NCBI GenBank assembly: GCA_025934135.1
Contig: JAICYR010000003.1
Span: 1-59,000 of the forward strand
DNA: 59,000 nucleotides
Source: Acidobacteriaceae bacterium
GTDB taxonomy: Bacteria > Acidobacteriota > Terriglobia > Terriglobales > Acidobacteriaceae
Direction of reading: 5' to 3'
Within the stretch, counting starts at the first letter, position 1, and each line of letters begins with the position of its first letter. Position numbers and translations under genes: made by a program. Below are positions 18,385 through 42,142 of this stretch, in pieces. A model generated the notes under the pieces. That model worked only from the letters and a program-made list of their open reading frames with translations, was not told where the DNA came from and searched no databases.

Positions 18385-18588
18385 TCACGCTTCTTTGCGG
18401 GAATCCTCTTCCGCGGGGCGCCAGGGGCAATTTCTGCATCCCGACTCGCAGCAATAGCCACGCTTCAGGTGATAGGCCGCCGTGAATACCAGGTATGGCC
18501 CCTCCATGATGTAGTCCTCACCTTCGATCAGAGGCTGAGGCAGATCAGGCAAGGGCACCGCCTCCGAACGGAAGTGAAAGTGCCCCAT
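18385..18588 (-). CDS. Small Cys-rich DUF5522-type protein
   Basis: This 67-residue protein carries E-G-E-D-Y-I-M-E-G-P-Y-L-V-F-T-A-A-Y-H-L then C-C-E-S-G-C-R-N-C-P-W. That is the DUF5522 pattern of a short domain ending in a four-Cys knuckle, probably metal-binding; no function is known. It overlaps the end of the Lhr C-terminal gene by 44 bases in another frame on the same strand, so it is likely translationally linked. Its original partner in an unbroken lhr locus would have been the full-length helicase. Confidence 0.75.
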   Translation of the reverse strand: MGHFHFRSEAVPLPDLPQPLIEGEDYIMEGPYLVFTAAYHLKRGYCCESGCRNCPWRPAEEDSRKEA

Positions 18589-19957
18589 CCGAGAGCTGCG
18601 CCGGAGCGTCGGCCGCTGTTTTCGCGGTGGGATAGCTGACGGTCCGGCCCAGAATGGCCGATTCGCGCTCGCCGGGAATCACGACTCCGACGAGATTCAT
18701 GGGGTCTGCGGCCGAATATGTAACTGTATTCGTCTCTGATTCTCGCCGCGACGCGCGCAGCGACTCCAACGCTTCAGGCAACGCGAATTGCTCGCCGCCG
18801 AAGCCGGAAACGAACCTTCCGCCGCGCACCGTGCCCCGCGCCTCCATGCGCCGGAACATTCCCAGCAGTTCGCGCCATTTGGGCATAGCGGTTTCGCGCT
18901 CCATGAGGTCGCGAAATACGACGCCGTAGCGGCGCAACAACACGTGGCAGGCCGACTCAATCGCTGATTCGCGCCACTGCGCCGATTGTTCGGCGGCGTC
19001 GGGCGCGCGCAGCAGGCTCCAGCGGCCGGCGGAAGGACGAGCGGCGCGCTTGATTCCCGCGGGCGCGGCAAACAGCTTTTTTCGCCGCGGATCGACGAGT
19101 ACGCGCAGGCTGTCGAAACCATCCGCCGTGACCAGACCAGCGGCGACAAGTTCCCACAAGGCGTGGCCCGCTTCGTCAGCGGTTGCGCCCAGCGCCCGCG
19201 CGAGATCGCCGGGAAACATAGCGCCACGCTCACCGAGATAGCTGCGCGCGCGGTTCGCGAGATCGCTGAGCGAGGCCGTGAGGTGGGCCTCGGGAACTTC
19301 GCGCCGCGCCAGGCACAAATCCATCCAGAGCGCATCTTCGCGCAGGAAAAATGTGATGGGAGCCACGCCGGTGGGAATGATGCGCTTCGGGCCGCCGCTC
19401 TCAATTGCGGCAAAGGCCGGATGCGGCGATATGCGTCCCCAACCGACGACGCCGGTCAGCGTAAGGGTATCGAGCCAGCGCGGATCGTAGTTCGCCACGC
19501 GCTGCGGCAGCAGCGACCGCTCCCATTCGACCGCCGGGGCCTCAAAACCCTCCAGCCCGCGCAGGGCTTCTAGCAGGCCGGCCTCGCCGGTAAGCTGCCG
19601 CTGAGCGCCCAGGTGCTGCCAGTTCAGGACAAAACGCATGTAGTCCGCCGGAGTGACGGGCTCAATCTGTTTCCTGAGGCTATGTAGAGTGGCTTTATGA
19701 ATGCGCTGTAGGAGGCGGCGCTCGCACCACTCGACGTCTGGGTCGGCGACCGCTCCGGACGGCCCCTCGAACGAGCCGCGTAGGATGGTGCCGGACATTT
19801 CGAGGCGCAGCATCTGCTTCCAAATTTCGCCCGCATCGATGCCCAGGCGCACGGCCAGCCCGCGCGAAGTCACCGGGCCAAGGATGGACATCCACCCCTG
19901 CACGGCCTTTCGCAGAATGTCGTCTGCAGATTTCGCTCCGGATGACTGGGCCAACAC
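18545..19957 (-). CDS. Lhr helicase C-terminal domain as a separate protein
   Basis: About 470 residues match the C-terminal module of full-length Lhr, not a stand-alone helicase. A winged-helix entry region (I-L-G-P-V-T-S-R-G-L-A-V-R-L-G-I) is followed by E-W-C-E-R-R-L-L-Q-R-I-H, I-E-P-V-T-P-A-D-Y-M-R-F, N-W-Q-H, L-E-G-F-E-A-P-A-V-E-W, V-V-G-W-G-R-I and further winged-helix repeats (G-A-M-F-P-G-D-L, E-L-V-A-A-G-L-V-T-A-D-G-F). There is no P-loop or DExH box. In E. coli this domain of Lhr has been reported to carry uracil-DNA glycosylase activity. The helicase half is 16.6 kb away at 36613-39639 on the same strand and in the correct order. GTG 19957 was chosen because GGAG lies five bases before it; the frame also runs through TTG 19975, inside a terminator U-tract, as expected of a gene broken at its 5' side. 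Confidence 0.85.
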   Translation of the reverse strand: MLAQSSGAKSADDILRKAVQGWMSILGPVTSRGLAVRLGIDAGEIWKQMLRLEMSGTILRGSFEGPSGAVADPDVEWCERRLLQRIHKATLHSLRKQIEPVTPADYMRFVLNWQHLGAQRQLTGEAGLLEALRGLEGFEAPAVEWERSLLPQRVANYDPRWLDTLTLTGVVGWGRISPHPAFAAIESGGPKRIIPTGVAPITFFLREDALWMDLCLARREVPEAHLTASLSDLANRARSYLGERGAMFPGDLARALGATADEAGHALWELVAAGLVTADGFDSLRVLVDPRRKKLFAAPAGIKRAARPSAGRWSLLRAPDAAEQSAQWRESAIESACHVLLRRYGVVFRDLMERETAMPKWRELLGMFRRMEARGTVRGGRFVSGFGGEQFALPEALESLRASRRESETNTVTYSAADPMNLVGVVIPGERESAILGRTVSYPTAKTAADAPAQLSDGALSLPFGGGALA

Positions 19958-19973
19958 CGCTACTCCAGCAAAC

Positions 19974-20004
19974 AAAAAGTCCGGAACCCGTGGGTCCCGG
20001 ACTT
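19974..20004 (-). terminator. Rho-independent terminator at the island end
   Basis: On the minus strand a 13-bp stem (arms 19992-20004 and 19977-19989, one G-U) is followed by five T. It lies 29 bases after the stop of the CE15-like esterase gene and thus closes the island transcript, directly before the open frame of the Lhr C-terminal half. A TATACT box at 20006-20011 is too close upstream to be an obvious promoter for that half. Confidence 0.8.
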
Positions 20005-20032
20005 CAGTATAGAAGGGCCAATAAGGCTACAA

Positions 20033-22228
20033 CTACACGGTCTGCTTCCGCTGCTGATCGAGCCAGTCAAAGGCCAGGTCTTGCGTTGACTTGGGAAAGC
20101 GATTGAAATCGTCCGGGCTTTCGATTTTGATTTGCGAGAACGGCTGGGCCAGTTTTTCGAGCGCCGGAAGATCGGTGTACCAGTCGTGCTTGGGGGCAAC
20201 AAGAAGGGTCTTCTTGTTGCCCATGCGCCGAAACACCTCGTCGTAGTCAAACGGAAGAGACGAGGGATTGTCCGCATAGAAGCCAAGCCGCGGCAGCAGG
20301 CCGTAAAGGTGCGAGTAGGCGCGGATTCCCTCCGTGTGCTTCGATGTGCGCAGAGGAGTGACTCCGGCGACCGAGACAATGGCCGCAGGCCTCTCATCGA
20401 GCGCGGCGGTCCACAGAGCAACGGTTCCGCCCAGCGTGTAGCCGAAGAGATAGACCTTCGAGGCATCAATATCGTCCCGCGAGGAGACGGCTGTAATGGC
20501 GGAGCGTGTATCGGCGATCATCTGGCCGAGCATCGACCATTTGGGATAGCGGTGGTAGAAGTCCTTCGCGTAATGCACGCGCGTGGCGTAACCAACCTGG
20601 TCGAAGGCGAGGACAGCGTATCCCCGGCGGGTCAGTTCTTCAAATGGCTCCTTGGCATACCGCGAATAACCCGTACTGTATGCGCGCTGATGCAGCCAGA
20701 TGACGACCGGCAGCTTCCCTTCGTGCTTGAGCGGAGTATAGAGGTCAGCTTTCTGGCTGAGACCATATCCCACGCTTTCAGCTTTCATCACGTCGCTGTG
20801 ATACGGCCGCCGCTCAAAGTAGTCAATCCAGCCGCCGCTTGCTCTTCCGTGATCGGGAAAAGGCACCTGTGCCGGCTCCTCGCCGAGCGCCCAGCGCAGC
20901 TTGTCTTCACCCGGATGGCCGGGAGATTTCTGCCCTGTCTGGGATTTCCAGTCGTCGAAGGTGTAGCCGAAAATGAAGGTCGGTTTGGCGACAGGAACCG
21001 ATGTCCGCCCGAAGACGCTGTCGAGGAAGTCCATGTAGAACTCCATCTCGCCGGAGGTCGTGGGGTGCCCTCCGTTGCGGATGCGAAGGCCCAGACGGTC
21101 CGGCGCGCCAAGGAAGTCATAAACGCGATGGGCGGAGCGGTAATTCTGCTCAAACCCAAAGTCCATGCCCTGCTCTTCCGTGCAGGAGCAGGTCATGAGA
21201 ACGGCGCGGGGCGCGACGAGCGAAAGGAAGGAATTCTGGTCGAATGGCAGTTTGTCTTCGCGCCCGGCGAAGAAGCGGATGCGCGGATGGAACCACTGCG
21301 GGAAGCTCGATGTGATCTGCTCGATGGTTTCCGTCGCAAAAGGGTCGGTGGTGTAGCGCCACGGATTGCACTCGCCGGTATTTCCGCTCGAAGGAACGGC
21401 GGCGGTGATGCGCTCGTCGTAGGCAGCAGCGATGAGCGCCATCTTCCCATTGCGCGAGTGCCCGCTGACGGCGATGCACTTGCGGTCCACTTCCGGCAGG
21501 GTATAGAGATAATCGACTGCGCGGCTGGCGGCCCATGCGCGGCGCGTCAGGCAGGAAAAGTCGTAGTCGGGATAGACCTCGATATATTTGTCGGAATCGT
21601 CCTGCTCGTCCGCCGCCATGAAGATAACGCCGATGTAGCCGCGCGCCACCGCGACCGGAGCCCACGGGCCGGTGCGTCCCTGGTTAGTGAGAAACACGGG
21701 GCGCGGGCCTTCCCCGGCCGGAATAAGCAGTTGCAGATTCAGGTAAGCGCGATGGTTCGGGCCAAATTCCAGACGCACGTCGCGAATCGTTACCTTGCCT
21801 TCCTTGGTTTCCTTGATCACGGCGGAGCGCAGGTTATCGGGCGCGGGAGGAACGCGGCCGGTCATCCAGTGCTCTGCCAGAGCCCGAATCTCGCCACGGC
21901 GCTTTGCCCAATCAGACTTGCTGTGGACGCCTTCGAGTGGGTCAGGGAGAAAGGGCTGCGACGGCATCTCAGAAAATTTTGGCGGCAGCTCGCCGGTGCG
22001 CTTCTGCCATTCTTCCCAAGTCAGGTCGTAGGCGCTGATGCGGCCATGCCGGAAGGCGCGGCGAGTGGGGGTGAGGACTTTGAGCATGAGGGCGAGGGCT
22101 TCGCGTTGCTCCTCGGTTCCCTCGGCTGCTTCAGCGGGCATGATTCCCAGGACTCCGGCCTTGGCCATCATGCTCGAACCGGCGAGCGTAGCGCCCGCCA
22201 TGCTTTGACAAAACGTGCGTCGATTCAT
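20033..22228 (-). CDS. Two-domain esterase: CE15-like glucuronoyl esterase plus degenerate alpha/beta hydrolase
   Basis: A 731-residue exported enzyme. The N-terminus M-N-R-R-T-F-C-Q is a twin-arginine signal. Residues about 150-440 are an alpha/beta hydrolase of CE15 type: nucleophile elbow G-H-S-R-N-G-K, then S-S-G-N-T-G-E-C-N-P-W and a His in N-G-G-H-P-T. CE15 enzymes cleave esters between glucuronic acid and lignin or alcohol groups. Residues about 470-725 form a second hydrolase domain with L-H-Q-R-A-Y and G-Y-T-L-G-G, where Thr replaces the expected nucleophile Ser, and K-H-D-W near the end. The second domain may be inactive or a binding module. It is the last gene of the island operon, 18 bases after the GH28 gene. 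Confidence 0.8.
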   Translation of the reverse strand: MNRRTFCQSMAGATLAGSSMMAKAGVLGIMPAEAAEGTEEQREALALMLKVLTPTRRAFRHGRISAYDLTWEEWQKRTGELPPKFSEMPSQPFLPDPLEGVHSKSDWAKRRGEIRALAEHWMTGRVPPAPDNLRSAVIKETKEGKVTIRDVRLEFGPNHRAYLNLQLLIPAGEGPRPVFLTNQGRTGPWAPVAVARGYIGVIFMAADEQDDSDKYIEVYPDYDFSCLTRRAWAASRAVDYLYTLPEVDRKCIAVSGHSRNGKMALIAAAYDERITAAVPSSGNTGECNPWRYTTDPFATETIEQITSSFPQWFHPRIRFFAGREDKLPFDQNSFLSLVAPRAVLMTCSCTEEQGMDFGFEQNYRSAHRVYDFLGAPDRLGLRIRNGGHPTTSGEMEFYMDFLDSVFGRTSVPVAKPTFIFGYTFDDWKSQTGQKSPGHPGEDKLRWALGEEPAQVPFPDHGRASGGWIDYFERRPYHSDVMKAESVGYGLSQKADLYTPLKHEGKLPVVIWLHQRAYSTGYSRYAKEPFEELTRRGYAVLAFDQVGYATRVHYAKDFYHRYPKWSMLGQMIADTRSAITAVSSRDDIDASKVYLFGYTLGGTVALWTAALDERPAAIVSVAGVTPLRTSKHTEGIRAYSHLYGLLPRLGFYADNPSSLPFDYDEVFRRMGNKKTLLVAPKHDWYTDLPALEKLAQPFSQIKIESPDDFNRFPKSTQDLAFDWLDQQRKQTV

Positions 22229-22246
22229 TCGTTGCCCTCGTAAAAA

Positions 22247-23923
22247 TCAGCTTGCAGCGGAAATGTTCCCGCTTTCGATTACGGTTTGTTGCGGCACTTC
22301 CGTCGAGACCGCGATTCCCTTCTGTGCGTTGCGCAGGTCGCAGCCTGAGACCAGCACCCCGGAAGATTCCGCTCCGCTCACGGCTATGTACTCGACAGTA
22401 TTCGCGGGCGCTGCGGACCCCGAAATCCAGGTGTCTTTGGCGTCCGTTAATTGAATGACCGGCTGAGAACCGGCGGTTGGCGAGCTTTTGATTCCTGCCA
22501 TGCGAACGCCGCTCACGTTGTCCATCATGATTGTGGAGCGGGCCTCGCGTGTTGCCGCGCGGAACGAAATGTCCCGCAGCGAGAGGTCCTGCACGTGACG
22601 CGCATACAGGCCGGAGACCGGCAACATGCCGAACATGATCGACTCCGGATACGCCGTGGGCAGTTCGGGAACCTCGCGATGAATCCATTCGGGCCGGCTG
22701 GGCAGCACGTTCTCAATGTGGATATTCGAGAGCGCTACATCGCGGACAGGCGATCCTGGGAGCCCGGTGATGGAGCTTGGAATAAGGGACTCCGAAGCGT
22801 GGATATTCTCGATGGTGATACCGCGCAGTCCATGCTTCTCCGTCTTGTGAGGGTTCGAGCGATTACCAAGCCGAATAAAAATCGGATTGCGCGCGCGCTG
22901 CATCTGGATGCCGGTAATGACGATGCCGTCGATCCAGCCGCCGTCGACGACTTCAAGTGCGATGCCGGAGACGACGCGGTTTTTGTAGTCGCCCGGCTTG
23001 CTGTAGACCACGGAATTGGAGAAGGTAATGTTTTCAAATCCGCCCTGCGAGCCGCTGCCTATTTTAAAGGCATTGCAGCAGGTGGAAAGCACGCAGTTTG
23101 TGATGGCGATGTTGCGCGCCAGCCGCGGCCCTTGTCCGGTTGGGTCCTCGCTCTTGAAAACGATGGCGTCGTCGCCCGTCTCAACGGAGCAGTCGGAAAT
23201 AAAAACATTCTGGCAGCCGTCAAGGTCAATGCCGTCCGTGTTTCGTCCGGTGACGGGGTTCTTAATCGAGACGCCGTGGATGAACAGGTTATCGCAGTTG
23301 ACCAGATTGAGCGTCCAGCCGGACGCACCCTCGATACGAAGATCTTCAAGATGGACCCAGCGACAGCTCTCGATCTGAATCATTGGAGTCGGTCGGCCTG
23401 TGGGCTTCGCCTGAAATGCGAGCGAGGCGACTTCCTTCCATTCACTGCCGGGATTCTCGTGATGCGGTGGAAAGGGCTCCCAGAATGCCGATCCTTGGCC
23501 ATTGACGCGGCCTGGTCCGGCGAGCGTAATGTTTTCGGCACCCTCCGCATAGATGAGGTGTTTGGTGCTGTGTCCGGATACGTGCATGACACGGCCCTTG
23601 GTACCGTAGTCGCTCATCTCCGTGCTGCCCACCAGCACCGCTCCGGCTTCAAGGTAGAGCGTGACATTGCTCTTGAGAACGACAGTGCCGGAGCGATAAG
23701 TCCCCGGTCGAAGATAAACCAGCCCGCCACCGGCCTTCGTGCAGGCGTCAATGGCGGCATTAATCGCGGGCGAGTCGAGGGCCTTCCCGTCCCCGACCGC
23801 TCCGAAGTGGGTCGGGTCGAACAGTGGCGCGTGGCCATTCTGCTTGCTGGGAGCCGCGTAAGCATTGACTACCGCGGAGGAGGCGAGCGCGCCGGTCAGC
23901 AACATCATTTGTCGTCGATTCAT
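22247..23923 (-). CDS. GH28-family pectinolytic glycoside hydrolase
   Basis: The 558-residue protein starts with Tat-like M-N-R-R-Q-M-M and a hydrophobic stretch. It is a right-handed beta-helix of the polygalacturonase/rhamnogalacturonan-hydrolase family. Entry motif F-G-A-V-G-D-G-K-A-L-D-S-P-A-I-N-A-A-I is followed by catalytic-region motifs N-T-D-G-I-D-L-D-G, then E-T-G-D-D-A-I, and I-F-I-R-L-G standing for the R-I-K motif. The usual G-H-G motif is not obvious (K-I-G-S-G-S instead), so the exact substrate may differ from polygalacturonan. The frame is open upstream to 24112, but ATG 23923 begins the signal peptide. It is 19 bases downstream of an esterase gene in the same operon. Confidence 0.87.
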   Translation of the reverse strand: MNRRQMMLLTGALASSAVVNAYAAPSKQNGHAPLFDPTHFGAVGDGKALDSPAINAAIDACTKAGGGLVYLRPGTYRSGTVVLKSNVTLYLEAGAVLVGSTEMSDYGTKGRVMHVSGHSTKHLIYAEGAENITLAGPGRVNGQGSAFWEPFPPHHENPGSEWKEVASLAFQAKPTGRPTPMIQIESCRWVHLEDLRIEGASGWTLNLVNCDNLFIHGVSIKNPVTGRNTDGIDLDGCQNVFISDCSVETGDDAIVFKSEDPTGQGPRLARNIAITNCVLSTCCNAFKIGSGSQGGFENITFSNSVVYSKPGDYKNRVVSGIALEVVDGGWIDGIVITGIQMQRARNPIFIRLGNRSNPHKTEKHGLRGITIENIHASESLIPSSITGLPGSPVRDVALSNIHIENVLPSRPEWIHREVPELPTAYPESIMFGMLPVSGLYARHVQDLSLRDISFRAATREARSTIMMDNVSGVRMAGIKSSPTAGSQPVIQLTDAKDTWISGSAAPANTVEYIAVSGAESSGVLVSGCDLRNAQKGIAVSTEVPQQTVIESGNISAAS

Positions 23924-23942
23924 CGCGGACCTTGCATGGATT

Positions 23943-25970
23943 TTATTTCTTATTGGACGAAGTTCCCGACGCGGAAACCGCGTCGAGTGGCTGAATGCTG
24001 AATCGTGGACCGAGGGCCTTCTCCAGGTCCGGCAGATCGAAATCGCGGAGAACCCCGGGAACAACCACATCGGGATCAAGATTGAAGCGCGTGAGCTGAG
24101 CCATCGCCACATATGTCATGGGGGCCTTGTCGCAAACGACGGCCCTGATATGCGGTTCGACCATCGCGGCAAACAAACCGAGGTTGGTGGCCTTGCCGGT
24201 GGTGCGTAGTGAAATGGAACGAGGCTGCACGTCCGGTCGCGCCTGAAGATAGCGAAATGCGCTGAGCACATCACGCGTCTGCATGGCTGGCATAGAGGTG
24301 CCGGTCAGAATCGCTTCCATGGGGATTTGGTAGGTACTCGGATATCCGGAGCCCCAGGTCAGAGGATGAGCGCTTTCGCCCCAACCGCGCGGATCAATGG
24401 CGAGAACGACATTGCCCTGCTGCACAAGGTGATCGATCGCGCTACCGGGGGCCGCGCCAGATTCCATGCCGGCTGGATTGATGTACAAGACCGCTGGCCT
24501 CCGCGGTGGCCCCTGCGACGAGCTGAAGACAAGTCCGGGAACGAGGATTCCGGGATCGGTGTGGATGTTGATTTTCTCAATGTGAACGCCGTCGCGGTCA
24601 AGCGAGCCGATTTTGTCCACGGTGGGAGTTTCACTTGTCCGAGGGAGCAAGAGCAGTTTGCGGACCAGAGCCGCGAGTTGCTTGCTGGATTTGGGCTTGG
24701 CTTCAGCCCGCAGATGCTCGGCGAGGGCCGCCGTCATGGCCTGAACCGTGGTCGCGTCAGGATAGCTTGTGAGCACCTGGCCCGTCGGAGTTACGTTGAG
24801 GTCCGCCGCAGAGCCTCGTTGCCGCGCGACGCCCTCGCCGTCATCATTGGTCCGGTCTTGAAGCCAGCGTGAAAGCCATTTGTATGCGGCTGCGCGACGA
24901 GGCGCCGACCAGCCATGCTTATCATTGGCTTCAATGAAACCGAACTTCTCTCCGGCCCCCATCAGGTTGAAGATCCGTTTGGCTTCGTCGCGGGTCTGGT
25001 GTGCGCCCGCGATGGGAAAGAAGTCCTGCGTGGCGGTTTCCATCAGTGCCGGGCGGGGAGCGATCTCGATCAGGAAATCCCCGTAATCGAGATGGTCCGC
25101 GAGAAAGTCCGGAAGCACCTGCTCTGAATCCTGCGGGCCGGGTCCACTCAACATCGCCTTCCAGGAGGTGAGATAGCAGGAGATGACTGCCACTGCGACC
25201 CGCCGGTCCATGGTGGCAATGTAAGCCGATTGAGTGCCCCCACCGGAGTTTCCGGCGGTTGCGATGCGCGATTTGTCGACGTCCGGCCTGGACTGGAGAT
25301 AGTCGATGCCGCGAATGCCATCCCAGATGAAGTAGCGGCCGATAGGGGTGCCGGTAAGCAGCGCCGGAATGCCGTCCGTCATGTGCTCCATGGTTCCATT
25401 AGGACGCAGCATGGGCTTATGCGTCGTCGGGTCGAGGTGCTCGATCCGTTCGCCTTGCCCGAGCGGATCAATGGCTAAAACAAGAAATCCGCGCTTAACA
25501 AGTGAAATCCAGACCGACTGGCCGCCCTTTTTGCCCATCTGGCTGTGCCCGGAGAGACCCAGCACCGCCGGATACGGCTTCGGCGCGTTTTTCGGAACGT
25601 AAACGTCAGCCGTCACGTAAAAATGAGGGATGCTCTGATAAATAAGCTTCTCAACGCTGTAGTCCCCGCGGTCGACGGTCCCGGTAATTTTCGCGTGCAG
25701 CGGGGTCCTGTCGGGGAAACCACCTATCTCTTTGAGAATGGTTTTTCTGATGTAAGCCTGCCGCCTTTGGACCGCTGCCTTGTCCTGAATGGCGGCGATT
25801 TCCTTCTGCCGCTCGGCGAGTTGGTGATCGGCCCTTTGGTCGAGGTAGTTCTTCACGATGTTGCCGAGATCGTTATCGACGGTGAGTGTTTGGCCTGAAG
25901 CGATTCCACCAAAACACAGTATGGATGCGGCAACGATGCCATTTATGAACATCATCGGTCGTCGATTCAT
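23943..25970 (-). CDS. Acetyl-esterase-like alpha/beta hydrolase, copy 1
   Basis: 675 residues. The first half is an acetyl-xylan-esterase-like hydrolase with S-G-H-S-Q-M-G, A-I-D-P-L-G-Q-G-E-R and the nucleophile elbow A-G-N-S-G-G-G-T near residue 238, with a likely His in D-K-H-G-W. The second half repeats an alpha/beta fold (A-I-D-P-R-G-W-G-E-S) but has R-T-T-G-K-A where a Ser nucleophile is expected, so it is probably non-catalytic. The N-terminus M-N-R-R-P-M-M-F is Tat-like and its DNA closely resembles the start of the GH28 gene. It should remove acetyl groups from an exported polysaccharide substrate. A paralogue of identical length lies 25 bases upstream. Confidence 0.83.
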   Translation of the reverse strand: MNRRPMMFINGIVAASILCFGGIASGQTLTVDNDLGNIVKNYLDQRADHQLAERQKEIAAIQDKAAVQRRQAYIRKTILKEIGGFPDRTPLHAKITGTVDRGDYSVEKLIYQSIPHFYVTADVYVPKNAPKPYPAVLGLSGHSQMGKKGGQSVWISLVKRGFLVLAIDPLGQGERIEHLDPTTHKPMLRPNGTMEHMTDGIPALLTGTPIGRYFIWDGIRGIDYLQSRPDVDKSRIATAGNSGGGTQSAYIATMDRRVAVAVISCYLTSWKAMLSGPGPQDSEQVLPDFLADHLDYGDFLIEIAPRPALMETATQDFFPIAGAHQTRDEAKRIFNLMGAGEKFGFIEANDKHGWSAPRRAAAYKWLSRWLQDRTNDDGEGVARQRGSAADLNVTPTGQVLTSYPDATTVQAMTAALAEHLRAEAKPKSSKQLAALVRKLLLLPRTSETPTVDKIGSLDRDGVHIEKINIHTDPGILVPGLVFSSSQGPPRRPAVLYINPAGMESGAAPGSAIDHLVQQGNVVLAIDPRGWGESAHPLTWGSGYPSTYQIPMEAILTGTSMPAMQTRDVLSAFRYLQARPDVQPRSISLRTTGKATNLGLFAAMVEPHIRAVVCDKAPMTYVAMAQLTRFNLDPDVVVPGVLRDFDLPDLEKALGPRFSIQPLDAVSASGTSSNKK

Positions 25971-25995: not shown

Positions 25996-28023
25996 TTACC
26001 TGAGATTAGACGAAGTTTTCGTCGCGCTGGACGCAGCATGCGATTGAATGCGAAAGCCCGGCCCCAAAGCACGCTCCAGATCGGGCAGATCGAAGTCGCG
26101 AAGGATGCCGGGAACAATCACGTCAGGATCGACTTTGCCGACCTTTTCCTGCGTCATCGCCAGATAGGTGAGCGGGGCCTTGTCGCATACGACGGCCTTA
26201 ATGCTCGGCTCGACCACAGCGGCGAACAGGGCAAGATTGGTGGCCTTGCCGGTGGTACGCAGCGAGATGGAACCAGCCTTCACGTCGGGTCTGCTCTCAA
26301 GATAGCGGATTGCGCTGAACACGTCGCGGGTCTGCATGGCGGGCATGGATGTGCCGGTCAGGATCGCGCGCATCGGAAGTTGATAAGTGCTCGGGTATCC
26401 GGAGTCCATCGTCATTGGCGGCGCGCTTTCGCCCCAGCCGCGCGGATCAATGGCGAGAACGACGTTGCCCTGCCGCACGATTTGGTCGATTGCGCCGCCG
26501 GGGGCCGCACTCGCGGCCATTCCGGCGGGGTTAAGATACAGGACCGCTGGGTTGCGGCCGGATGAGTGGGGAGGGCTGAAAACGAGTCCGGGGACAAGGA
26601 TTCCGGGTTCGGATTGGATGTTGATTTTTTCAATGTGAACGCCGTCGCGGTCGAGCGAGCCGACCGTGTCCACGGCGGGGGCTTCGGTTTGCCGCGGAAG
26701 GGAGAGTAATTTGCGGACGACAATCGCCAGTTGCTCACGGCTTTTTGGCTTGGCTTCGGCGCGGAGGCGGTCGGCGAGAGCGGCCGTAATGGATTGCACA
26801 TTTTTCGCGTCGGGATAGCTTGAGAGTACTTGGCCGGTCGGTGTCGCGTTGAGATCGGCTGGCGTGTTCAGATGCTCAACGAGGTCCTTGCCGTCGTCGT
26901 TGGTGCCGTCCTTGAGCCATCGGGAGAGCCATTTGTATGCGGCCCCACGGCGCGGCGCGGACCAGCCGTGCTCGTCCGCATACTCAAAGTAGCCGAACTT
27001 CTCACCGGCCCCCATCAGGTTGAAAATCCGCTTGGCTTCATCACGTGTCTGACGCGCGCCCGCGATGGGGAAAAAATCATACGTGGCGGTCTCCTCAAGG
27101 GCCGGACGCGGGGCAATCGCAATCAGAAAATCGCCAAAGTCAAGATGGTCCACGAGGAAATCTGTGAAGACCTGCTCGGAGTCCTGCGGGCCGGGTCCAT
27201 CCCAGATGGCCTTCGACGAATTGAGGTAGCAGGAAATAACGGCCGCCGCCACGCGCTGGTCCATGGCCGCGATGTAAGCCGATTGCGTGCCGCCACCGGA
27301 GTTGCCGGCGGTCGCGATGCGGGACTTATCCACGTCCGGCCGCGACTCAAGGTAATCGATGCCGCGAATGCCGTCCCAGATGAAGTAGCGGGCAATATCT
27401 GTCCCGGTGAGAAGGGCCGGCAAGCCGTCGGTCATGTGGGCCATGGTCCCGCCGGGGCGCAAAAACGGCCGACGCGTTTTCGGGTCCAGATGCTGGATGC
27501 GCTCCCCTTGACCCAGCGGATCTATGGCAAGCACGAGAAAGCCACGCTTGGCGAGGGAAATCCAGACCGTCTGGTAATTGCTGAATTCTTTGCCGTCAGG
27601 GCTGTGTCCCGCGAGGCCCAGCACAGCGGGGTAGGGTTTGGGTGCGTTCTTTGGAACGTACACGTCAGCTGTCACATAAAAATGGGGAAGGCTCTGGTAA
27701 ACAAGCTTTTCAATCGTGTAGCCGGGGCGGTCGACGGTTCCGGTGATGGTGGCGTGCAGCGGAGTCTTGGCGGGAAAGCCGCCGATCTCTTTGAGAATGG
27801 TTTTTCTGATGTAAGCCTGGCGCTTTCGTACCGCCACCTTGTCCTGAATGGCGGCAATTTCGTTCTGACGCTCGGCAAATTGGTGGTTGGCGCGCTGGTC
27901 GAGATACTTCCGGACCATGTGGCCAAGATTGTTGTCGACAGTGAGCGATTGGCTTGAAGCCGTGCAACAAAAGACAAAGGCGAAGGTGAGGGTGAAAACC
28001 AAAAGAGACTTAGGCAGTTTCAT
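25996..28023 (-). CDS. Acetyl-esterase-like alpha/beta hydrolase, copy 2
   Basis: A 675-residue paralogue of the 23943 gene, alike over almost the whole length (shared L-T-V-D-N-x-L-G, A-G-N-S-G-G-G-T-Q-S-A-Y, Y-F-I-W-D-G-I-R-G-I-D-Y-L and the same C-terminal domain with R-T-T-G-K-A). The difference is the first 25 residues: here M-K-L-P-K-S-L-L-V-F-T-L-T-F-A-F, a Sec signal peptide without twin arginines. GAGGTGA lies directly before ATG 28023. A terminator for the upstream receptor gene lies between the two genes, so either readthrough or a separate promoter is needed. Tandem duplication with change of export route is inferred. Confidence 0.83.
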   Translation of the reverse strand: MKLPKSLLVFTLTFAFVFCCTASSQSLTVDNNLGHMVRKYLDQRANHQFAERQNEIAAIQDKVAVRKRQAYIRKTILKEIGGFPAKTPLHATITGTVDRPGYTIEKLVYQSLPHFYVTADVYVPKNAPKPYPAVLGLAGHSPDGKEFSNYQTVWISLAKRGFLVLAIDPLGQGERIQHLDPKTRRPFLRPGGTMAHMTDGLPALLTGTDIARYFIWDGIRGIDYLESRPDVDKSRIATAGNSGGGTQSAYIAAMDQRVAAAVISCYLNSSKAIWDGPGPQDSEQVFTDFLVDHLDFGDFLIAIAPRPALEETATYDFFPIAGARQTRDEAKRIFNLMGAGEKFGYFEYADEHGWSAPRRGAAYKWLSRWLKDGTNDDGKDLVEHLNTPADLNATPTGQVLSSYPDAKNVQSITAALADRLRAEAKPKSREQLAIVVRKLLSLPRQTEAPAVDTVGSLDRDGVHIEKINIQSEPGILVPGLVFSPPHSSGRNPAVLYLNPAGMAASAAPGGAIDQIVRQGNVVLAIDPRGWGESAPPMTMDSGYPSTYQLPMRAILTGTSMPAMQTRDVFSAIRYLESRPDVKAGSISLRTTGKATNLALFAAVVEPSIKAVVCDKAPLTYLAMTQEKVGKVDPDVIVPGILRDFDLPDLERALGPGFRIQSHAASSATKTSSNLR

Positions 28024-31871: not shown

Positions 31872-33035
31872 TTAGAGTGACGCCTGCGTTCGCAGGAATT
31901 CATGCGCGGCAATGCTTGCCGCCCCTCTTGCCCAAAAGCTTTTCGCCGCTCTGTGGAAGAGCAATTTTGTGGAGGGAAGGAAGCGAGGCAGAATATTATT
32001 TTCGATTGCCTGGCGGACCGCGGTCAGGAAAATGCCGCCCTCGATATCTTCCGTAAAAGCGAAGAGAACCGCCTCAGGATTATTTGTCTGAATCAAATAA
32101 GAAACCGCCAGCCCAAGCGCCTGGCCGGCGTTGCGCAGAATGCCGGTTGCCGCCGTATTTCCCACTGAAGCGAGCCGCTCGATGTCCTGCAAATTTTCCA
32201 CCGCGAGGGATTGGTTCCGCGCCAGATCCACCATGGCGGCGATGCCACTGATGGTATCCAGGCAGCCCTTTTTCCCGCAGCGGCAGGAAAGACCGTTCGG
32301 GTCCATGGTGTAATGTCCAATTTCGCCGGCGCCGCCGCTTGCCCCTCTATAAAGTCTTCCACCAATGTAGTGCCCGGCCCCAATCGCATAGCTGAGCGTC
32401 ACGATGGTGAAGTTGCGCAGCTTGCGGGTGTTTCCAAAAAGCTTTTCGCCGGTCGCCACAGCGTTAGCATCATTCTCCAGATAAGTGGGGACGCCGGTCA
32501 CTCGCTGGACCACGCTAACGATGGGAACATCGGACCAATCCAGTTCGTTGGAGCGTATGCAGACGCCCGAATGAGGATCAACGAATCCAGAGATGGCCAG
32601 CCCGATCCCGAGCAGATTTTTCTTCTGAATGCCTTTGTTTTGAAGAATATATTTCATTCCGTCGCGTATAGCCGCAGCGCAAGCCTCCGGACGGGTTGTG
32701 AGCTCAAAGCTGTGGTTCTGTAGAACATTGCCATGTATATCGCAGAGCACCAGCAAGGCGGTCTCGTCCTGAAGAGAGACGCCCAGCACGTATCCGCGAT
32801 TCTCATTCAGGGCAAGCAGAACGGATGGCCTTCCCTGGCGCTGGCCATCATGAACGACCGAGGTTTCGCGAACCAGGCCGGCTTCGATCAACTCCCGGCT
32901 CAGTTCGGTAAGCGCGGAACGGCTCAGGCCAATCTTCTCCGCGAGATCGGAACGCGACATGGCGCCCGACTCGATCAGCGATTCGATTACCGACAGTTTC
33001 GATGATTTTGCCGCGTACTCTTCGAGTTGACGCAC
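31872..33035 (-). CDS. ROK-family transcriptional regulator
   Basis: A 387-residue NagC/XylR-type protein. An N-terminal winged helix (residues 10-65: M-S-R-S-D-L-A-E-K-I-G-L-S-R-S-A-L-T-E) precedes a sugar-kinase-like ROK domain. E-N-D-A-N-A-V-A-T-G-E and the zinc motif G-H-Y-T-M-D-P-N-G-L-S-C-R-C-G-K-K-G-C are conserved. The ATP-binding D-I-G-G-T-type loop is replaced by G-V-S-L-Q-D, so it should be a sugar-responsive repressor, not a kinase. It most likely controls the island through dyads at 31685 (receptor) and 33083 (its own 5' side). The gene lies between the receptor and lyase genes on the same strand. The ligand is unknown. Confidence 0.9.
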   Translation of the reverse strand: MRQLEEYAAKSSKLSVIESLIESGAMSRSDLAEKIGLSRSALTELSRELIEAGLVRETSVVHDGQRQGRPSVLLALNENRGYVLGVSLQDETALLVLCDIHGNVLQNHSFELTTRPEACAAAIRDGMKYILQNKGIQKKNLLGIGLAISGFVDPHSGVCIRSNELDWSDVPIVSVVQRVTGVPTYLENDANAVATGEKLFGNTRKLRNFTIVTLSYAIGAGHYIGGRLYRGASGGAGEIGHYTMDPNGLSCRCGKKGCLDTISGIAAMVDLARNQSLAVENLQDIERLASVGNTAATGILRNAGQALGLAVSYLIQTNNPEAVLFAFTEDIEGGIFLTAVRQAIENNILPRFLPSTKLLFHRAAKSFWARGAASIAAHEFLRTQASL

Positions 33036-33169: not shown

Positions 33170-35053
33170 CTATTTCCAGTCCTTTAGATCGCGCATCGGG
33201 ACGGTTCCAGCCTCCCCAGTCCGGGAAAAGATGACAGTAATCTTCTGAGGCGCGTCGCCACCGGGAATGTCGATCACCAGGTCTGTGACACCGGGGTTGG
33301 GAGTTTCGGCTGGAGTGATGTGTTCGGCGAGGATACTGAAACGGATTCCGGCAGGGGAGACAATAGCAGCCCGCAGGGTCTTACCATCCTGAGTCAGCGT
33401 GGCGGAGCGCCCGTCGGACGCGACAGCCACCATCGCCCTGGTTTGAAAATGCCAGATGAGATTGTCCGCCGTCGCGGGGGTGATTTCATCCTGCACCAGC
33501 ACTCTTCGGCCATCGAGAATGGCGACGCCGCGCTTCCAAGATTTCAGCTTGCCCTTGTAGACATTGTCGAGGTCGAGGACCGCGAATTCATTGTTGCCCC
33601 GGCTTTCGGCGAAGAGCAGCTTGGCTGTGCCGTCGGTGTCCTGGTTCTTATCGCCGACCGCGATGGTATTGTGGGACCGGGTTTGCGTGCGATAGTAGTT
33701 CCAGCGCTTTTTGGCAAAATAGCCGGGGAGGCCATAGGTATCCGGCCCCAGATCAATCGCCCAGCGCTGGCCGAGCGCGTCCATTACAAAGGAGCCCGAG
33801 TCAAGATGAGAGTGGCTCACCCCGTTTTTACCGCCCTTGAAGCCGATATACCAGGCATCCGGATCGCCCCACGCGGTCCGCATATAGGTCTGGTCTATAC
33901 GGGAAAAGCTTTCGACCAATGGCAGCGGCTTTGCGTTAACGGGCTCCGGCGCGAGGGCGTACCAGAGCAGGCCCATCATCTCGAAGCGAGAAAGCCCCCG
34001 GTACGGTTCCATGGTGTCGATCCGCTTTTGTAAATGAATCTCCAGGTTCCTCTCATGCACCGCGTCCAGCGGTTGATGAAAGCGTCGGGCGAACCATAAC
34101 ATCTGCGGCGAAGCTGAATATGCATCGACGTGCGCATCTCCGAAATTCGTGTACAGATAGAGCGGGTCATTCGCCTGTAGCTCGTATTGCGGAGTTTGCT
34201 CAAAGCCGGGCATTGTTGACGCACCACAGTCCGTGTCGAGCGCCGACTCTAGCGAAGCGATGTAGAGGACGTTGTAGATGGTCGCGTAGTTCCAATAGAC
34301 CGGGCCTTCCTCGAATCCGCCGTCCGGCGCGAAGAGCTTCATCGCAGCGGCAATGCCGGGCCTGGCATAGCCAATCATTTTTTGCGCGATGGCTTTGGTG
34401 GTGTCATCATCGGCGATGGCGAGCGCGCCCACGGTCTCGCCGCCATAGATTACCTGCGCCCAGTTGTTGGTCATGTGAAACCGATTGTGGCTTAGAACGT
34501 TCATCCAGGGGCTGATGCCCTTCTCGACGATGGCGAATTTGATTGTGTCGCGCTGCTCCGGCGTCAGCACCGGATAGAGCCAGTCATAGCCAATGCCCAG
34601 CGCCGCCGTCATTTCGCCCGTCGAGAGAGGGTGCCGGATGTCCCAATCGGGGAAGCCGGCGGCGGCGAGCATCTCGGCGGTGGCGCGGTCTGCAAAGCGG
34701 CGGTCTCCTGTGAGCCGATACATGCCGGCGAGCGTGAGGACCCGTTTCTCCACAATGCGGACGGTCCACAAGAGCGTGCCCCTGGGGCCGTTGATGACAT
34801 AAACTTCAGGCTTCTCGGAGAGAAGAGATTCCGACTCGGCAAGCATCGCGTCGTAGCGGGATTTTGCGAATGAGTCCGACGCGATACGCGCCTTGATCGT
34901 GGGAAGGTCGGAGTCGAGAATCATGAGCCTCGGATGCGCAGCCCTGAGCGTCTTCAGCGACGTGGGCACGGGTGGGCCTTCCTGAGCGGCGAGCGGCAGG
35001 AAGGAAACGAACAACAGTGCAGCGCATAACAGAAGCAGATTCAAACGGCGCAT
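33170..35053 (-). CDS. Heparinase II/III-like polysaccharide lyase
   Basis: A 627-residue secreted protein with a Sec signal peptide ending near P-L-A-A-Q. Residues about 30-330 form the alpha/alpha toroid domain of uronate lyases (H-P-R-L-M-I, W-D-I-R-H-P-L-S-T-G-E-M, H-M-T-N-N-W-A-Q-V, P-D-G-G-F-E-E-G-P-V-Y-W-N-Y). The C-terminal half is a beta-sandwich of heparinase II/III type with H-S-H-L-D-S-G-S-F-V and R-S-H-N-T. Asn in N-N-W, Tyr in Y-W-N-Y and the His residues are the likely catalytic set, though its exact PL family is unclear. It should cleave a uronic-acid-containing polymer by beta-elimination. It is divergent from the sulfatase across a 174-base gap in which no clear promoter or operator was found. 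Confidence 0.85.
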   Translation of the reverse strand: MRRLNLLLLCAALLFVSFLPLAAQEGPPVPTSLKTLRAAHPRLMILDSDLPTIKARIASDSFAKSRYDAMLAESESLLSEKPEVYVINGPRGTLLWTVRIVEKRVLTLAGMYRLTGDRRFADRATAEMLAAAGFPDWDIRHPLSTGEMTAALGIGYDWLYPVLTPEQRDTIKFAIVEKGISPWMNVLSHNRFHMTNNWAQVIYGGETVGALAIADDDTTKAIAQKMIGYARPGIAAAMKLFAPDGGFEEGPVYWNYATIYNVLYIASLESALDTDCGASTMPGFEQTPQYELQANDPLYLYTNFGDAHVDAYSASPQMLWFARRFHQPLDAVHERNLEIHLQKRIDTMEPYRGLSRFEMMGLLWYALAPEPVNAKPLPLVESFSRIDQTYMRTAWGDPDAWYIGFKGGKNGVSHSHLDSGSFVMDALGQRWAIDLGPDTYGLPGYFAKKRWNYYRTQTRSHNTIAVGDKNQDTDGTAKLLFAESRGNNEFAVLDLDNVYKGKLKSWKRGVAILDGRRVLVQDEITPATADNLIWHFQTRAMVAVASDGRSATLTQDGKTLRAAIVSPAGIRFSILAEHITPAETPNPGVTDLVIDIPGGDAPQKITVIFSRTGEAGTVPMRDLKDWK

Positions 35054-35227: not shown

Positions 35228-36616
35228 ATGATGACAATGAACCGACGCGAATTTTTGCTGACGGCCGGTGCGGCGGCCTGCGCTGCTGGCCTGCCGGCGT
35301 ATGGCGCTGAGAAGCGCCGGCCGAACATCGTCATTATCACCACCGATGAGCAGTCCTTCGATGCGGTGAGCCACCGCATCGGGACCCGGTATCTCCATAC
35401 GCCCAATGTCGACGGCCTAGCCGCGAATGGAGTCGTGTTTAACCGAGCTTACTGCGCGGACCCCATCTGCGTGGCCTCGCGCACGGCGATGTTCACGGGG
35501 CGCTATCCCACGGAAACCAGCGTGGTCGATAACAGCGATCTGACCCGCGTCCATCTCGATCCGCGCAGGTTCCCCATCATGGGAAAGATTTTTCGCCGCA
35601 GAGGCTACAACACCGCCTATTTCGGCAAGTGGCACATCGCCTGTTCCAAAGATGATGTGGATGTCCACGGCTTCACCACCATCGCTACGACGCTCAAGGA
35701 TGATGTGGCCACCGCGAATGCCGCGGCCTTTCTAAGGTCAAAGCCAAAGGGTCCGTTCCTGATGGTCGCCTCGCTTCTCAATCCGCACAACATTTGCGAG
35801 TGGGCGCGCGGACAGAAGCTTCCACTTGGCCCTATCGGCAATCCGCCGCCGGTGGACCAATGCCCTCCCCTGCGCCCCAACCACGCTCCACAACACAACG
35901 AGCCGGACATCATTTCGCTCATGCGCCGCTCCTACCACGACACGCGGATGTTCCCCGTCGGCAACTACAGTGACGCGAAATGGCGCGAATACGAATGGGC
36001 CTACTATCGCCTCGCCGAAAAGGCAGACGCGCACGTCGGGGCCGTGCTCAAGGCGCTCAGGGATTCCGGGCTGGAGCAAGACACGCTGGTGGTGTTCCTC
36101 TCAGACCACGGAGACTGCCAGGGCGCGCACGGCTGGAACCAAAAGACCGTCTTCTACGATGAAGCCTCGCGCGTGCCGCTTATCCTGAGCCACAAGGGTG
36201 TGCTGCAGCCGGGCAAATCGAACCGTCTCGTCAATACGGGTATCGATCTGATCCCGACGCTTTGCGATTACGCCGGCATTGCCGCTCCCCCGGGACTGCC
36301 GGGCATCAGCCTGCGACGTACCGAGACGCGCCCGCGGCGGTATGTGATTTCAGCCAACAAGCTGGTGCAGGGCGCGCCTGTTGATGGCAAAAAGCCCACT
36401 CCCAGCGGTCGCATGTTGCGCAGCCAACGGTTCAAGTATTGTGTCTACGACCAGGGCATGCGCAGAGAATCTCTCGTGGACATGGAAACGGATCCCGGAG
36501 AAATGTGGAACCTGGCCTATGAGCCTCGCTACCAAAGCGTGCTTCACCAGCACCGGGCCATGCTGCGAGAGTGGTGCGCTGGCACGCCCGACTCGTTCCC
36601 TGTTCCGGCAGCTTAG
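35228..36616 (+). CDS. Tat-exported type I sulfatase
   Basis: A 462-residue protein starting M-M-T-M-N-R-R-E-F-L-L-T-A-G, a good twin-arginine signal. The sulfatase fold begins R-P-N-I-V-I-I-T-T-D-E-Q. The modification motif is C-V-A-S-R-T-A-M-F-T-G-R-Y-P, so the catalytic Cys must become formylglycine; Ala replaces the more usual Pro but fits the wider C-x-(P/A)-x-R pattern. H-D-G-type metal residues appear as L-S-D-H-G-D. No maturase gene is in the window. The enzyme may desulfate sugars from the same polysaccharide. ATG 35237 (directly M-N-R-R, eight bases after GAGAGG) may be the true start. The stop overlaps the end of the opposing Lhr core gene by a few bases. Confidence 0.9.
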   Translation: MMTMNRREFLLTAGAAACAAGLPAYGAEKRRPNIVIITTDEQSFDAVSHRIGTRYLHTPNVDGLAANGVVFNRAYCADPICVASRTAMFTGRYPTETSVVDNSDLTRVHLDPRRFPIMGKIFRRRGYNTAYFGKWHIACSKDDVDVHGFTTIATTLKDDVATANAAAFLRSKPKGPFLMVASLLNPHNICEWARGQKLPLGPIGNPPPVDQCPPLRPNHAPQHNEPDIISLMRRSYHDTRMFPVGNYSDAKWREYEWAYYRLAEKADAHVGAVLKALRDSGLEQDTLVVFLSDHGDCQGAHGWNQKTVFYDEASRVPLILSHKGVLQPGKSNRLVNTGIDLIPTLCDYAGIAAPPGLPGISLRRTETRPRRYVISANKLVQGAPVDGKKPTPSGRMLRSQRFKYCVYDQGMRRESLVDMETDPGEMWNLAYEPRYQSVLHQHRAMLREWCAGTPDSFPVPAA

Positions 36617-39600
36617 CCAGCCAGAGACATTTGGTCGACAGGGCGAGGCTGCATGGTTTCACTCGCGAAAACGGCAGAGGGAAAGAGCAGACGAAACTCC
36701 TCAACTCGTTCAGCCGCAGCACAATATGCGCGTCCGTCCACTGACGCAAGCAAGATGCGGCCGCTCCGAATGAGCCCTTCCAGAAACGCATCCCACCCAT
36801 TTCCCTGCGCAAAATCCGCCGGAACCACCACCATCGAGCAGAGCAAATCATGCAGTTCGTGCTCATCGCGAATGTCGGGCTGAATCTGCGCGCGGACCTC
36901 CGCTATGGCTTCGGGAGATAGCCGCCCCGCCTCGCCCAGCAACTCATCCGGCAACCGACCGCGCATGGCCACGGCGCGCGCGCGGCGCTCCTCGAGCGGA
37001 GCATCGTCGAGAAACGCATACGGATTCGCGTTCAGAATTTCGTGCGCGAAGGCCGAAGGCGTGGCAGTATCAACGGCGAGGCATTGGATGCGACCCAAGT
37101 GCATGGCCTCGATCACAGCCTTCAGGCCATCCAGATCCATCGCCTCGCCCAGCACGTCCCGCATCACTTCACGAATCAGCGGATGGTCGGGAATCTGGAT
37201 ATCGCCCTCGACGTTCTCCTGACAGGCGGCCACCTGCGGAAAAACGCTGGCCAGCAGATCGTCCGAGCGCGTGCGCTGAATCTGCGGCGGAACTTTTTTG
37301 CCTCTTTGAAAACGCAGCAATTGCAACGCCCGCCCCGCGCCCCAGCGCCACCGCGCCTTGAAGATGGGGGAAGCGAGCGACGCCTGCTCCAGAAGCTCCG
37401 TTACGGTCTGTGCGGTCAAAAACTGAAACACATCACTCAGCGGAAAGCTGTGCTGCTCAGCCAGCGAAATGTTCAGCCCGTTGTCCGTGGCCGCCGCCTG
37501 CAATTCAAAATTAAATCCGCGACAGAAGCGCTTCCTCAGCGCCAACCCCCACGCTTTATTGACGCGACCGCCGAACGGCGCGTGAAGGATCAACTGCATT
37601 CCGCCGCCCTCGTCGAAAAACCGTTCCGCAACAATCGTTGTTACAGAAGGAACCGTGCCCAGCACGGCGCGGCCTTCGACAACATAGGCAATCATCTGTT
37701 CCGCGCCTGCGTCGTCCACGGCGCACTCGCGCTTAAGCCAGGCGGCGGTTTCCGCCACTATCGGATCCGTCTGGCTCACGCGACCGGGCACAACCTCCCT
37801 CGTGTGGCCGTCGATTTCCAGCCGCAGATCCGAGACAAACTCCGAAAGCTCGCGCGTGCGCTGCGGCGCCTCGCCCGCCCAGAAAGGCAGCGTCGGCGGC
37901 TGCCCCTGCGCATCTTCCACCAGCACGCGCCCGCTCGCCTCAATCTTCTGAATACGCCAGCTTGAGTTCCCCAGCAGAATCACATCACCCGACGATGAGT
38001 CGATCGCGAAGTCTTCATCGAGTGTGGCAATCTGCACGCCATCTGGCTGCAGAATAACCGGCATCAGCGCGGTGTCGGGAATCGTGCCGCCGTTCGTCAC
38101 CGCCGTCATGCGCGCGCCGCGCCGCGCCTGAATGCGCCCGTTGACGCCGTCGCGCAGCAGATAGGCACCAAAGCGCCCCCGGCTCGACTCAATGCCTTCG
38201 GTCAGCAGGCACAGCGCTTCTTCAAATTCTTCCCACCTCAACTCGCGATACGGCTGCGCGCGCCGCAACACCTCGAACAACTGCCGCTCTTCCCATGGCT
38301 CGGCGGCGCAGGCGGCCACAATCTGCTGCATCAGTACGTCGAAGGGTTTCGGCGGAATCTCCAGCCGGTCGAGCACGCCGCTGCGCATGGCGCGAATGGC
38401 CGCCGCGTTCTCCATGAGGTCATCGCGTGTGGTAACAAAAAATCTGCCTTTCGGCGTTGCCCCACGCCAGTGTCCCGCTCGTCCCACGCGCTGCATGGCC
38501 ACTGATATAGCGCGCGGCGAGTTGATCTGGCAAACCAGGTCGACTGTCCCAATGTCGATGCCCAATTCCAGAGAGGCAGTTGCGACCAGCATCCGAATTT
38601 CGCCTGCTTTCAGCCGCCGCTCGGCTTCGAGGCGCAGCTTGCGCGACAACGACCCATGATGCGCGGCCACCTGCTCCGCGCCCAGCCGCGCGGAGAGGGC
38701 AAACGCCAGCCGTTCGGCCATACGCCGCGTGTTCACGAAAACCAGCGTCGAGCGATGCTCCAGCGCAAGTTCAGCTAACCGCGCGTAGACGCTCTCCCAC
38801 ACAGCTTGCGTTGCTACAGCGCCCAATTCATCGCTTGGAACCTCAATCGCCAGGTCCAACTTGCGCCGCTGCCCTGCTTGCACAATCTCGACTTCCGCCG
38901 CGCGCGCGCCGCCAAGAAACTCCGCAATCGCCTCGATGGGATTCACCGTGGCAGAAAGCCCAATGCGCTGCGGTGCATTGTGTCCAGAAATCAGGTCCGC
39001 CGCGTTCAGCCGGTTCTCGCCGCGAGCCAGCGCATCCAGCCGCTCCAGCGTGAGGGCCAGATGTGAGCCGCGCTTGTCATCCGCAATGGCGTGAATTTCG
39101 TCCACGATTACGGTGCGCACGCGGCGCTGGTTCTGGCGGCTCTTCTCGGCGGTCAAGATAATATAAAGCGACTCCGGGGTGGTAACCAAAATGTGCGGCG
39201 GCGACTTCAGCATGGCCACGCGTTCCTTGGGCAGCGTGTCTCCAGTGCGAACCGCAGTGCGAATCGGCGGACAGAGATAACCGCGCTCCAGCGCCAACTG
39301 CTGAATTTCGCGCAGCGGGGCCTCTAAGTTTTTCTGGACATCGTTGGACAGCGCCTTGAGCGGCGAGACGTAGACGACCTGCGTTGCACTCTCCAGCCGC
39401 CCTTCAATGGCCTGGCGCAGCAGCACGTCAATGGCGATAAGAAACGCCGCCAGCGTTTTGCCCGAACCGGTCGGCGCGCAGATGAGCGCGGGCCTTCCGC
39501 CGAGAATGTGCGGCCAGCCCAGTTCCTGTGGCTCCGTCGGCGTCGAGAAGCGGCGCACGAACCACTCCCGCACCACCGGATGCGCCCAGCCGAGGCCCTC

Positions 39601-39639
39601 CGGCGCAAGCCCGCACTCGGGAATCACGGCAGACAGCAT
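36613..39639 (-). CDS. lhr: Lhr-type large DExH helicase, helicase half
   Basis: 1008 residues with all superfamily 2 helicase motifs: A-P-T-G-S-G-K-T near 55-62, S-P-L-K-A-L-S-N-D, T-T-P-E-S, V-D-E-I-H-A, L-S-A-T-V-N, V-F-V-N-T-R, H-H-G-S-L-S, then A-T-A-S-L-E-L-G-I-D-I-G and Q-R-V-G-R-A-G-H. The winged-helix and DEAD/H-associated region follows up to N-P-Y-A-F-L-D-D-A-P-L-E-E-R-R-A-R-A-V and R-A-Y-C-A-A-A-E-R-V. Lhr is a 3'-5' DNA-repair helicase, about 1500 residues when full length. Here it stops in the linker, and the missing C-terminal domain is the separate 18545-19957 gene. The start ATG has TACAAT five bases upstream and appears leaderless. The stop codon overlaps that of the sulfatase. 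Confidence 0.93.
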   Translation of the reverse strand: MLSAVIPECGLAPEGLGWAHPVVREWFVRRFSTPTEPQELGWPHILGGRPALICAPTGSGKTLAAFLIAIDVLLRQAIEGRLESATQVVYVSPLKALSNDVQKNLEAPLREIQQLALERGYLCPPIRTAVRTGDTLPKERVAMLKSPPHILVTTPESLYIILTAEKSRQNQRRVRTVIVDEIHAIADDKRGSHLALTLERLDALARGENRLNAADLISGHNAPQRIGLSATVNPIEAIAEFLGGARAAEVEIVQAGQRRKLDLAIEVPSDELGAVATQAVWESVYARLAELALEHRSTLVFVNTRRMAERLAFALSARLGAEQVAAHHGSLSRKLRLEAERRLKAGEIRMLVATASLELGIDIGTVDLVCQINSPRAISVAMQRVGRAGHWRGATPKGRFFVTTRDDLMENAAAIRAMRSGVLDRLEIPPKPFDVLMQQIVAACAAEPWEERQLFEVLRRAQPYRELRWEEFEEALCLLTEGIESSRGRFGAYLLRDGVNGRIQARRGARMTAVTNGGTIPDTALMPVILQPDGVQIATLDEDFAIDSSSGDVILLGNSSWRIQKIEASGRVLVEDAQGQPPTLPFWAGEAPQRTRELSEFVSDLRLEIDGHTREVVPGRVSQTDPIVAETAAWLKRECAVDDAGAEQMIAYVVEGRAVLGTVPSVTTIVAERFFDEGGGMQLILHAPFGGRVNKAWGLALRKRFCRGFNFELQAAATDNGLNISLAEQHSFPLSDVFQFLTAQTVTELLEQASLASPIFKARWRWGAGRALQLLRFQRGKKVPPQIQRTRSDDLLASVFPQVAACQENVEGDIQIPDHPLIREVMRDVLGEAMDLDGLKAVIEAMHLGRIQCLAVDTATPSAFAHEILNANPYAFLDDAPLEERRARAVAMRGRLPDELLGEAGRLSPEAIAEVRAQIQPDIRDEHELHDLLCSMVVVPADFAQGNGWDAFLEGLIRSGRILLASVDGRAYCAAAERVEEFRLLFPSAVFASETMQPRPVDQMSLAG

Positions 39640-42141: not shown

Positions 42142-42142
42142 G

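Follow-up and report, generated by a model that had tools for sequence, protein, structure and literature searches.

A 16.6-kb polysaccharide-utilisation block lies between two parts of an lhr gene in an Acidobacteriaceae bacterium

The gene for the DNA-repair helicase Lhr is found in two parts in the genome of a soil Acidobacteriaceae bacterium (assembly GCA_025934135.1), the parts being separated by a 16.6-kb polysaccharide-utilisation block of eight genes, hereafter the island. The stretch analysed (the window, to which all coordinates refer) spans positions 1-59,000 of contig JAICYR010000003.1. Disruption of the gene by the polysaccharide block at a domain boundary is well supported by comparison with related sequences. 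We consider it probable that the block entered an intact lhr recently, leaving a stand-alone motor and a poorly expressed C-terminal fragment.

Both parts of lhr reside on the minus strand. The helicase half (36613-39639, 1,008 aa) comprises the RecA domains together with WH_Lhr and DEAD_assoc, and also holds winged helix 1 of the C-terminal domain. Pfam detected DEAD, Helicase_C, WH_Lhr and DEAD_assoc in it, and the motifs APTGSGKT, VDEIHA and QRVGRAGHW of the superfamily 2 (SF2) motor were found; an SF2 motor joined to WH_Lhr and DEAD_assoc is what is expected of full-length bacterial Lhr. The C-terminal half (18545-19957, 470 aa), which starts with a GTG at 19957 preceded by GGAG 5 nt upstream, includes the winged helices 2 onward and the end of the domain. 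WH3_Lhr and WH4_Lhr were detected in it by Pfam. Relative to full-length Lhr, the C-terminal winged-helix array is present, though spread over two frames, and the single polypeptide is not, as a stop codon ends the helicase half and 16.6 kb separate the frames. When aligned to the Lhr of Mycobacterium smegmatis (7lhl entry sequence, 1,508 residues), the helicase half matches up to residue 975, and the C-terminal half covers residues 995-1402, with no overlap. Because these alignments are complementary, the two frames are regarded as successive parts of one protein. The original prediction, made from the letters of the window, had taken them as such, the 18545 protein being part of the Lhr C-terminal domain, and had noted that the summed length approaches that of full-length Lhr; the sum, 1,478 residues, agrees with open frames of 1,482-1,494 aa in four intact relatives of the same genus (G001, G002, G006, G008). 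Neither frame contains internal stops or frameshifts. In structure searches (Foldseek, VIA) the matches ranking below 7lhl, 9zd6 and 5uuj were mostly single winged helices, and these lower matches were uninformative.

The break had been placed between domains. It does fall between two winged helices (1 and 2 of the C-terminal domain), not at the boundary of the helicase core with the C-terminal domain, which is located about 115 residues earlier. The last ~13 residues of the helicase half (MQPRPVDQMSLAG) make up a new tail to which nothing in the aligned relatives corresponds. The C-terminal half retains the GRW motif. By counting on the printed alignment, the GRW arginine probably corresponds to R1286 of M. 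smegmatis, and the residue at the position of R1206 is probably not an arginine; both arginines are named in the work reporting that the C-terminal domain nucleates the oligomer (PMC11323726).

Eight other genomes of the genus were compared. In five of them the halves are joined, have the same flanks, and no island is present. The gene is in one frame in the four relatives mentioned above, and is joined across the junction in G007, whose contig begins at about residue 800. The contig of G004 ends 13 codons upstream of residue 10 of the C-terminal half, within a linker of the native type, and that of G005 just past residue 944, before the junction; G003 has no match to the C-terminal half. The flanks are collinear with those of the relatives: downstream lie a DUF5522 gene and a gene that matches VWA weakly, upstream PMT_2-like genes. 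Relatives with a joined gene and the same flanks, DUF5522 included, are what the proposal of an island inserted into a once intact lhr called for.

Larger samples have been surveyed. The C-terminal half was searched in 300 genomes of the family at E 1e-60; 232 genomes matched, and 150 matches were listed and counted by hand. A frame longer than 600 aa, reaching upstream past the break, was found in 146 of the 150 listed matches. The remaining four are the window itself, G004, G557 and G567, the last three at contig ends, and this genome is the only one among those listed in which the break is away from a contig edge. Frames measure at least 1,300 aa in 132 listed matches; of the other 18 (window included), 14 exceed 600 aa and run past the break. 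Among these 14, G007 is cut by the start of its contig and G160 by a run of N; the other 12 may be shortened by contig ends or other breaks. At the phylum level, WH4_Lhr was matched in 166 of 396 genomes, and 60 relatives were also searched for the same split. In none of the eight short-frame phylum genomes inspected (G073, G135 and G296 fall outside this set) does the C-terminal part stand as a gene of its own clear of a contig end: three (G061, G258, G375) have adjacent frameshifts, one (G160) a run of N, three (G371, G437, G228) contig ends, and G388 has no N-terminal part. The adjacent frameshifts, in loci L102, L103 and L105, occur at three different points of lhr, and reflect either sequencing error or decay. 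Relatives sharing the split in the absence of the island, named in the original prediction as contrary evidence, were found neither among the genus genomes searched nor among the listed family and phylum matches.

A second, divergent lhr resides in the same genome, as a single open frame of 1,585 aa in contig C80; its pieces are 37-50% identical to the split gene. Of the eight other genomes searched in the genus, seven have counterparts (G001, G002, G005, G006, G008, and, as shorter frames, G004 and G007). An intact second copy had also been named as evidence against the insertion. The copy exists, and leaves the insertion unrefuted, being a divergent paralogue common in the genus. With it present, a working split product is less needed. 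The C-terminal half of the split gene is unmatched at E 1e-60 in 68 of the 300 family genomes, incomplete genomes included; with the paralogue present, loss of the split-type lhr seems tolerable.

The island edges touch both halves of lhr, as originally noticed. The TAA of the helicase half (36613-36615) is overlapped by the TAG (36614-36616) of a convergent sulfatase gene. On the opposite side a terminator-like hairpin followed by a U tract (19976-20005, minus strand) is located 3' of the last minus-strand gene of the island and ahead of the C-terminal half. The stem is made by 13 uninterrupted pairs, two of which are G-U, with UUUUUGUUU, and the hairpin ends 18 nt ahead of the GTG. The 71-nt stretch spanning this region has a folding energy of -30.4 kcal/mol (z -2.86), matched in stability by 6 of 200 shuffles. 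The order on the gene strand is esterase stop, hairpin, GGAG, five bases, GTG. In-frame start codons with GGAG, GAGG or AGGA at similar spacing occur five times in the 1,008 codons of the helicase half and never in the 470 codons of the C-terminal half, and such a start right at the junction is mildly unusual. Scanning of 18400-20700 revealed no promoter between the terminator and the GTG; the one promoter-like match in this interval, on the gene strand, is inside the frame (1 found, 0.5 expected). The absence of direct repeats and integrase genes, already remarked upon, is confirmed. The longest word shared by the two junctions measures 5 nt, a length reached or exceeded in 300 of 300 shuffles, and provides no sign of a direct repeat or target-site duplication; no gapless match at the junctions is above chance, and for the longest inverted word, 8 nt, an equal or longer one arose in 76 of 300 shuffles. 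A direct match of 13/16 positions on either side of the terminator was treated as chance, both places being on one side of the island. Neither integrase nor transposase genes were found among the eight island genes scanned, the scan not extending to small frames, and no tRNA gene is present in the window.

Selection on the two halves was analyzed by a GY-type codon model (F3x4, fixed FastTree topologies) on nine sequences each, over 447 (C-terminal half) and 837 (helicase half) ungapped codons. For the C-terminal half, omega is 0.052 on the window branch and 0.094 on the others (2dlnL 5.7 for the difference); fixing omega at 0.03 costs 4.5, at 0.08 costs 3.5, and at 1 costs 82. For the helicase half the values are 0.056 and 0.054, and omega = 1 costs 103. 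Single-branch omegas of other taxa range from 0.049 to 0.109 in the C-terminal half and from 0.029 to 0.082 in the helicase half. Synonymous change is large on these branches. Of 617 columns that do not vary in six relatives, the helicase half deviates at 25. The new tail accounts for five of these; the other 20 are somewhat above the 6-16 of four other genus members, and below the 27-30 of two outgroups. The absence of decay is compatible with a recent break and with retained function alike; these give the same signal, and dating of the insertion from selection was discarded. The Ka/Ks comparison suggested in the original prediction accordingly reveals no relaxed selection, and does not show function after the break. 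Stops, frameshifts and relaxed selection, the marks of a pseudogene, were not found, and a recent pseudogene would look identical.

In the reading that we favour, the block entered an intact lhr after the lineage had split from the sampled sister species, within the codons of the ~13-residue loop between winged helices 1 and 2, as comparison with the relatives shows. Illegitimate or homologous recombination appears likelier than an integrase, because no repeat or integrase was found. The helicase half has its original start and all of its motor domains, and a stop codon closes it at the island edge; it most likely still yields a stand-alone Lhr motor, now without a covalent link to the domain that forms oligomers. 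The C-terminal half carries the AlkZ/AlkX-like module. Its frame is open and its start plausible, but it lies behind a terminator; it is most likely poorly expressed, and may persist mainly through the recency of the break. The motor would thereby be uncoupled from the oligomer and from the glycosylase-like module. According to published reports, the Lhr motor is functional in the absence of the C-terminal domain; that domain nucleates the tetramer, and crosslink repair in living mycobacteria depends on it (PMC11323726). The C-terminal fragment of Escherichia coli Lhr, taken alone, is reported to have less uracil-glycosylase activity than the complete protein (PMC10953399). Some observations weigh against a fragment surviving by recency: selection is relaxed in neither half, all 69 of the columns that do not vary among the 35 other aligned sequences (columns in which at least 90% of these have a residue) are conserved in the C-terminal half, and the GGAG/GTG start at the junction exceeds what a dead fragment needs.

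These same features would be expected if two functional proteins were made, either reassociating via the surface between winged helices 1 and 2, or acting separately as a motor and a DNA-binding or glycosylase-like protein. We regard this as unlikely. A terminator-like hairpin lies directly upstream of the C-terminal frame, the sole promoter-like match nearby is inside that frame and close to chance, no second split genome is present among the matches listed, and a full-length paralogue exists. Re-docking of the two halves may be possible. A natural two-gene Lhr, in which a motor with one winged helix would be docked by a separately translated winged-helix/AlkX-like protein, is rated as slightly more doubtful still. 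If it were true, coupling of the motor to the oligomer and to the glycosylase-like module would depend on the relative expression of the halves, and the C-terminal half would be governed by leakage through a sugar-operon terminator. The two-subunit enzyme of the original prediction has no support beyond the open, conserved frames, and the terminator and the paralogue weigh against it; the omega values are no less expected of a recent break. A natural split of Lhr is not mentioned in the titles and abstract openings of the literature found on Lhr and its parts, a set mostly without subscription papers, in which several hits for 'truncated LHR' were judged at that level; a search on gene fission yielded one paper, an unrelated one.

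Misplacement by the assembler of an unrelated 16.6-kb segment inside lhr is very improbable. The genome is fragmented (300 contigs, 88% complete, 3.5% contamination), but an artefact needs two false joins within one loop of ~13 codons, while lhr loses little or none of its sequence; synteny with relatives extends over both flanks, the window contains no N, and no direct word longer than 5 nt is shared that could drive a misjoin. Even less credible is an ancestral split, with the island arriving later between two pre-existing genes. Frame breaks are known in the lhr of other members of the phylum, but the three cases break at different points and have adjacent parts, and the closest relatives, G007 included, have a joined gene; the genus genomes searched already contradict this alternative. 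The locus amounts to a clean experiment of nature in separating the domains of Lhr. Should the split gene still be in use, it reveals which Lhr interface tolerates cutting; otherwise it illustrates well how a polysaccharide block can spread at the cost of a gene that has a paralogue.

As in full-length bacterial Lhr (bLhr-HTH; M. smegmatis Lhr, 7lhl and 5v9x, and E. coli Lhr), the tested domains occur in the same order, with matches in sequence and fold, but over two genes 16.6 kb apart, broken between winged helices 1 and 2. The helicase half would resemble bLhr, the stand-alone Lhr-Core of the Pseudomonas putida type, in being a motor without most of the C-terminal domain. It differs in having one extra winged helix, and sequence and synteny place it in a gene which is full-length in relatives. 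The bLhr genes are reported usually to neighbour a metallophosphoesterase (PMC8301817); none was found among six window neighbours scanned. A further comparison is with the AlkZ/AlkX (YcaQ) HTH_42 DNA glycosylases, from which the C-terminal half is distant at 13-14% identity; E. coli Lhr-CTD (the C-terminal domain) is reported to have no AlkZ QxQ motif (PMC10953399). Gene-disrupting genomic islands likewise feature a block of accessory genes and flanks syntenic to island-free relatives. In contrast to integrase-borne islands, no integrase among the scanned genes, no tRNA and no flanking repeat accompany this block.

Seven of the eight island genes share the strand of lhr. From the C-terminal side, they encode a glucuronyl-esterase-like protein with a second alpha/beta hydrolase domain (20033-22228; Pfam), a GH28 polygalacturonase/rhamnogalacturonidase-like protein (22247-24112), two double alpha/beta-hydrolase esterases, A (23943-25970) and B (25996-28023), which share 77% identity, a TonB-dependent receptor-like outer membrane protein (28093-31545), a ROK-family regulator (31872-33035) and a heparinase II/III-like lyase (33170-35053). 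The plus-strand sulfatase gene (35228-36616) alone points toward the helicase half, with which it is convergent. The GH28 and esterase A frames as called (22247-25970) overlap by 170 nt, and the GH28 start may be further downstream. A TonB-type receptor, polysaccharide-active enzymes and a regulator found together make a polysaccharide-utilisation locus, and the description of the intervening genes as a polysaccharide-degradation set holds. Esterase relatives (57-60% identity) reside in G351, G094 and G335 of the family; in G335 a receptor (64%), an esterase (60%) and a GH28 protein (61%) occur in the same order as in the island. In the esterase search, G001, the sole other genus member visible among the genomes drawn, gave no match at E 1e-30. 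The edge genes have only partial best matches in the genus (sulfatase, 35% in G002; glucuronyl-esterase-like, 40% in G001). Movement of the block within the genus was judged unlikely, as the edge genes, the only ones searched across the genus, have no close relatives there. GC and GC3 of the island are slightly below those of the flanks, and composition gives no clear foreign signal. The source was probably an acidobacterial polysaccharide locus.

The DUF5522 gene (18385-18588, minus strand) overlaps the 3' end of the C-terminal half, starting 44 nt inside it, and may rely for its expression on transcripts that run through lhr and are now interrupted by the island. In the sister species G008 (L066, 3640-10900) a different insert of ~7.3 kb, encoding a GH5 cellulase, a GH42 beta-galactosidase and a protoglobin, is found between the VWA-like gene and DUF5522/lhr, ~1.6 kb from the position of the break in the window. 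The insert is missing in G002, G004, G006 and G007; G001 has ~1.4 kb extra there. The G008 insert hints that the neighbourhood of lhr may be a tolerant insertion site. Upstream of lhr (39688-44179), two PMT_2-like genes surround an epimerase gene. Since each of these genes matches several places in the loci of relatives, the copy number of the PMT_2-like/epimerase family at this locus may be variable.
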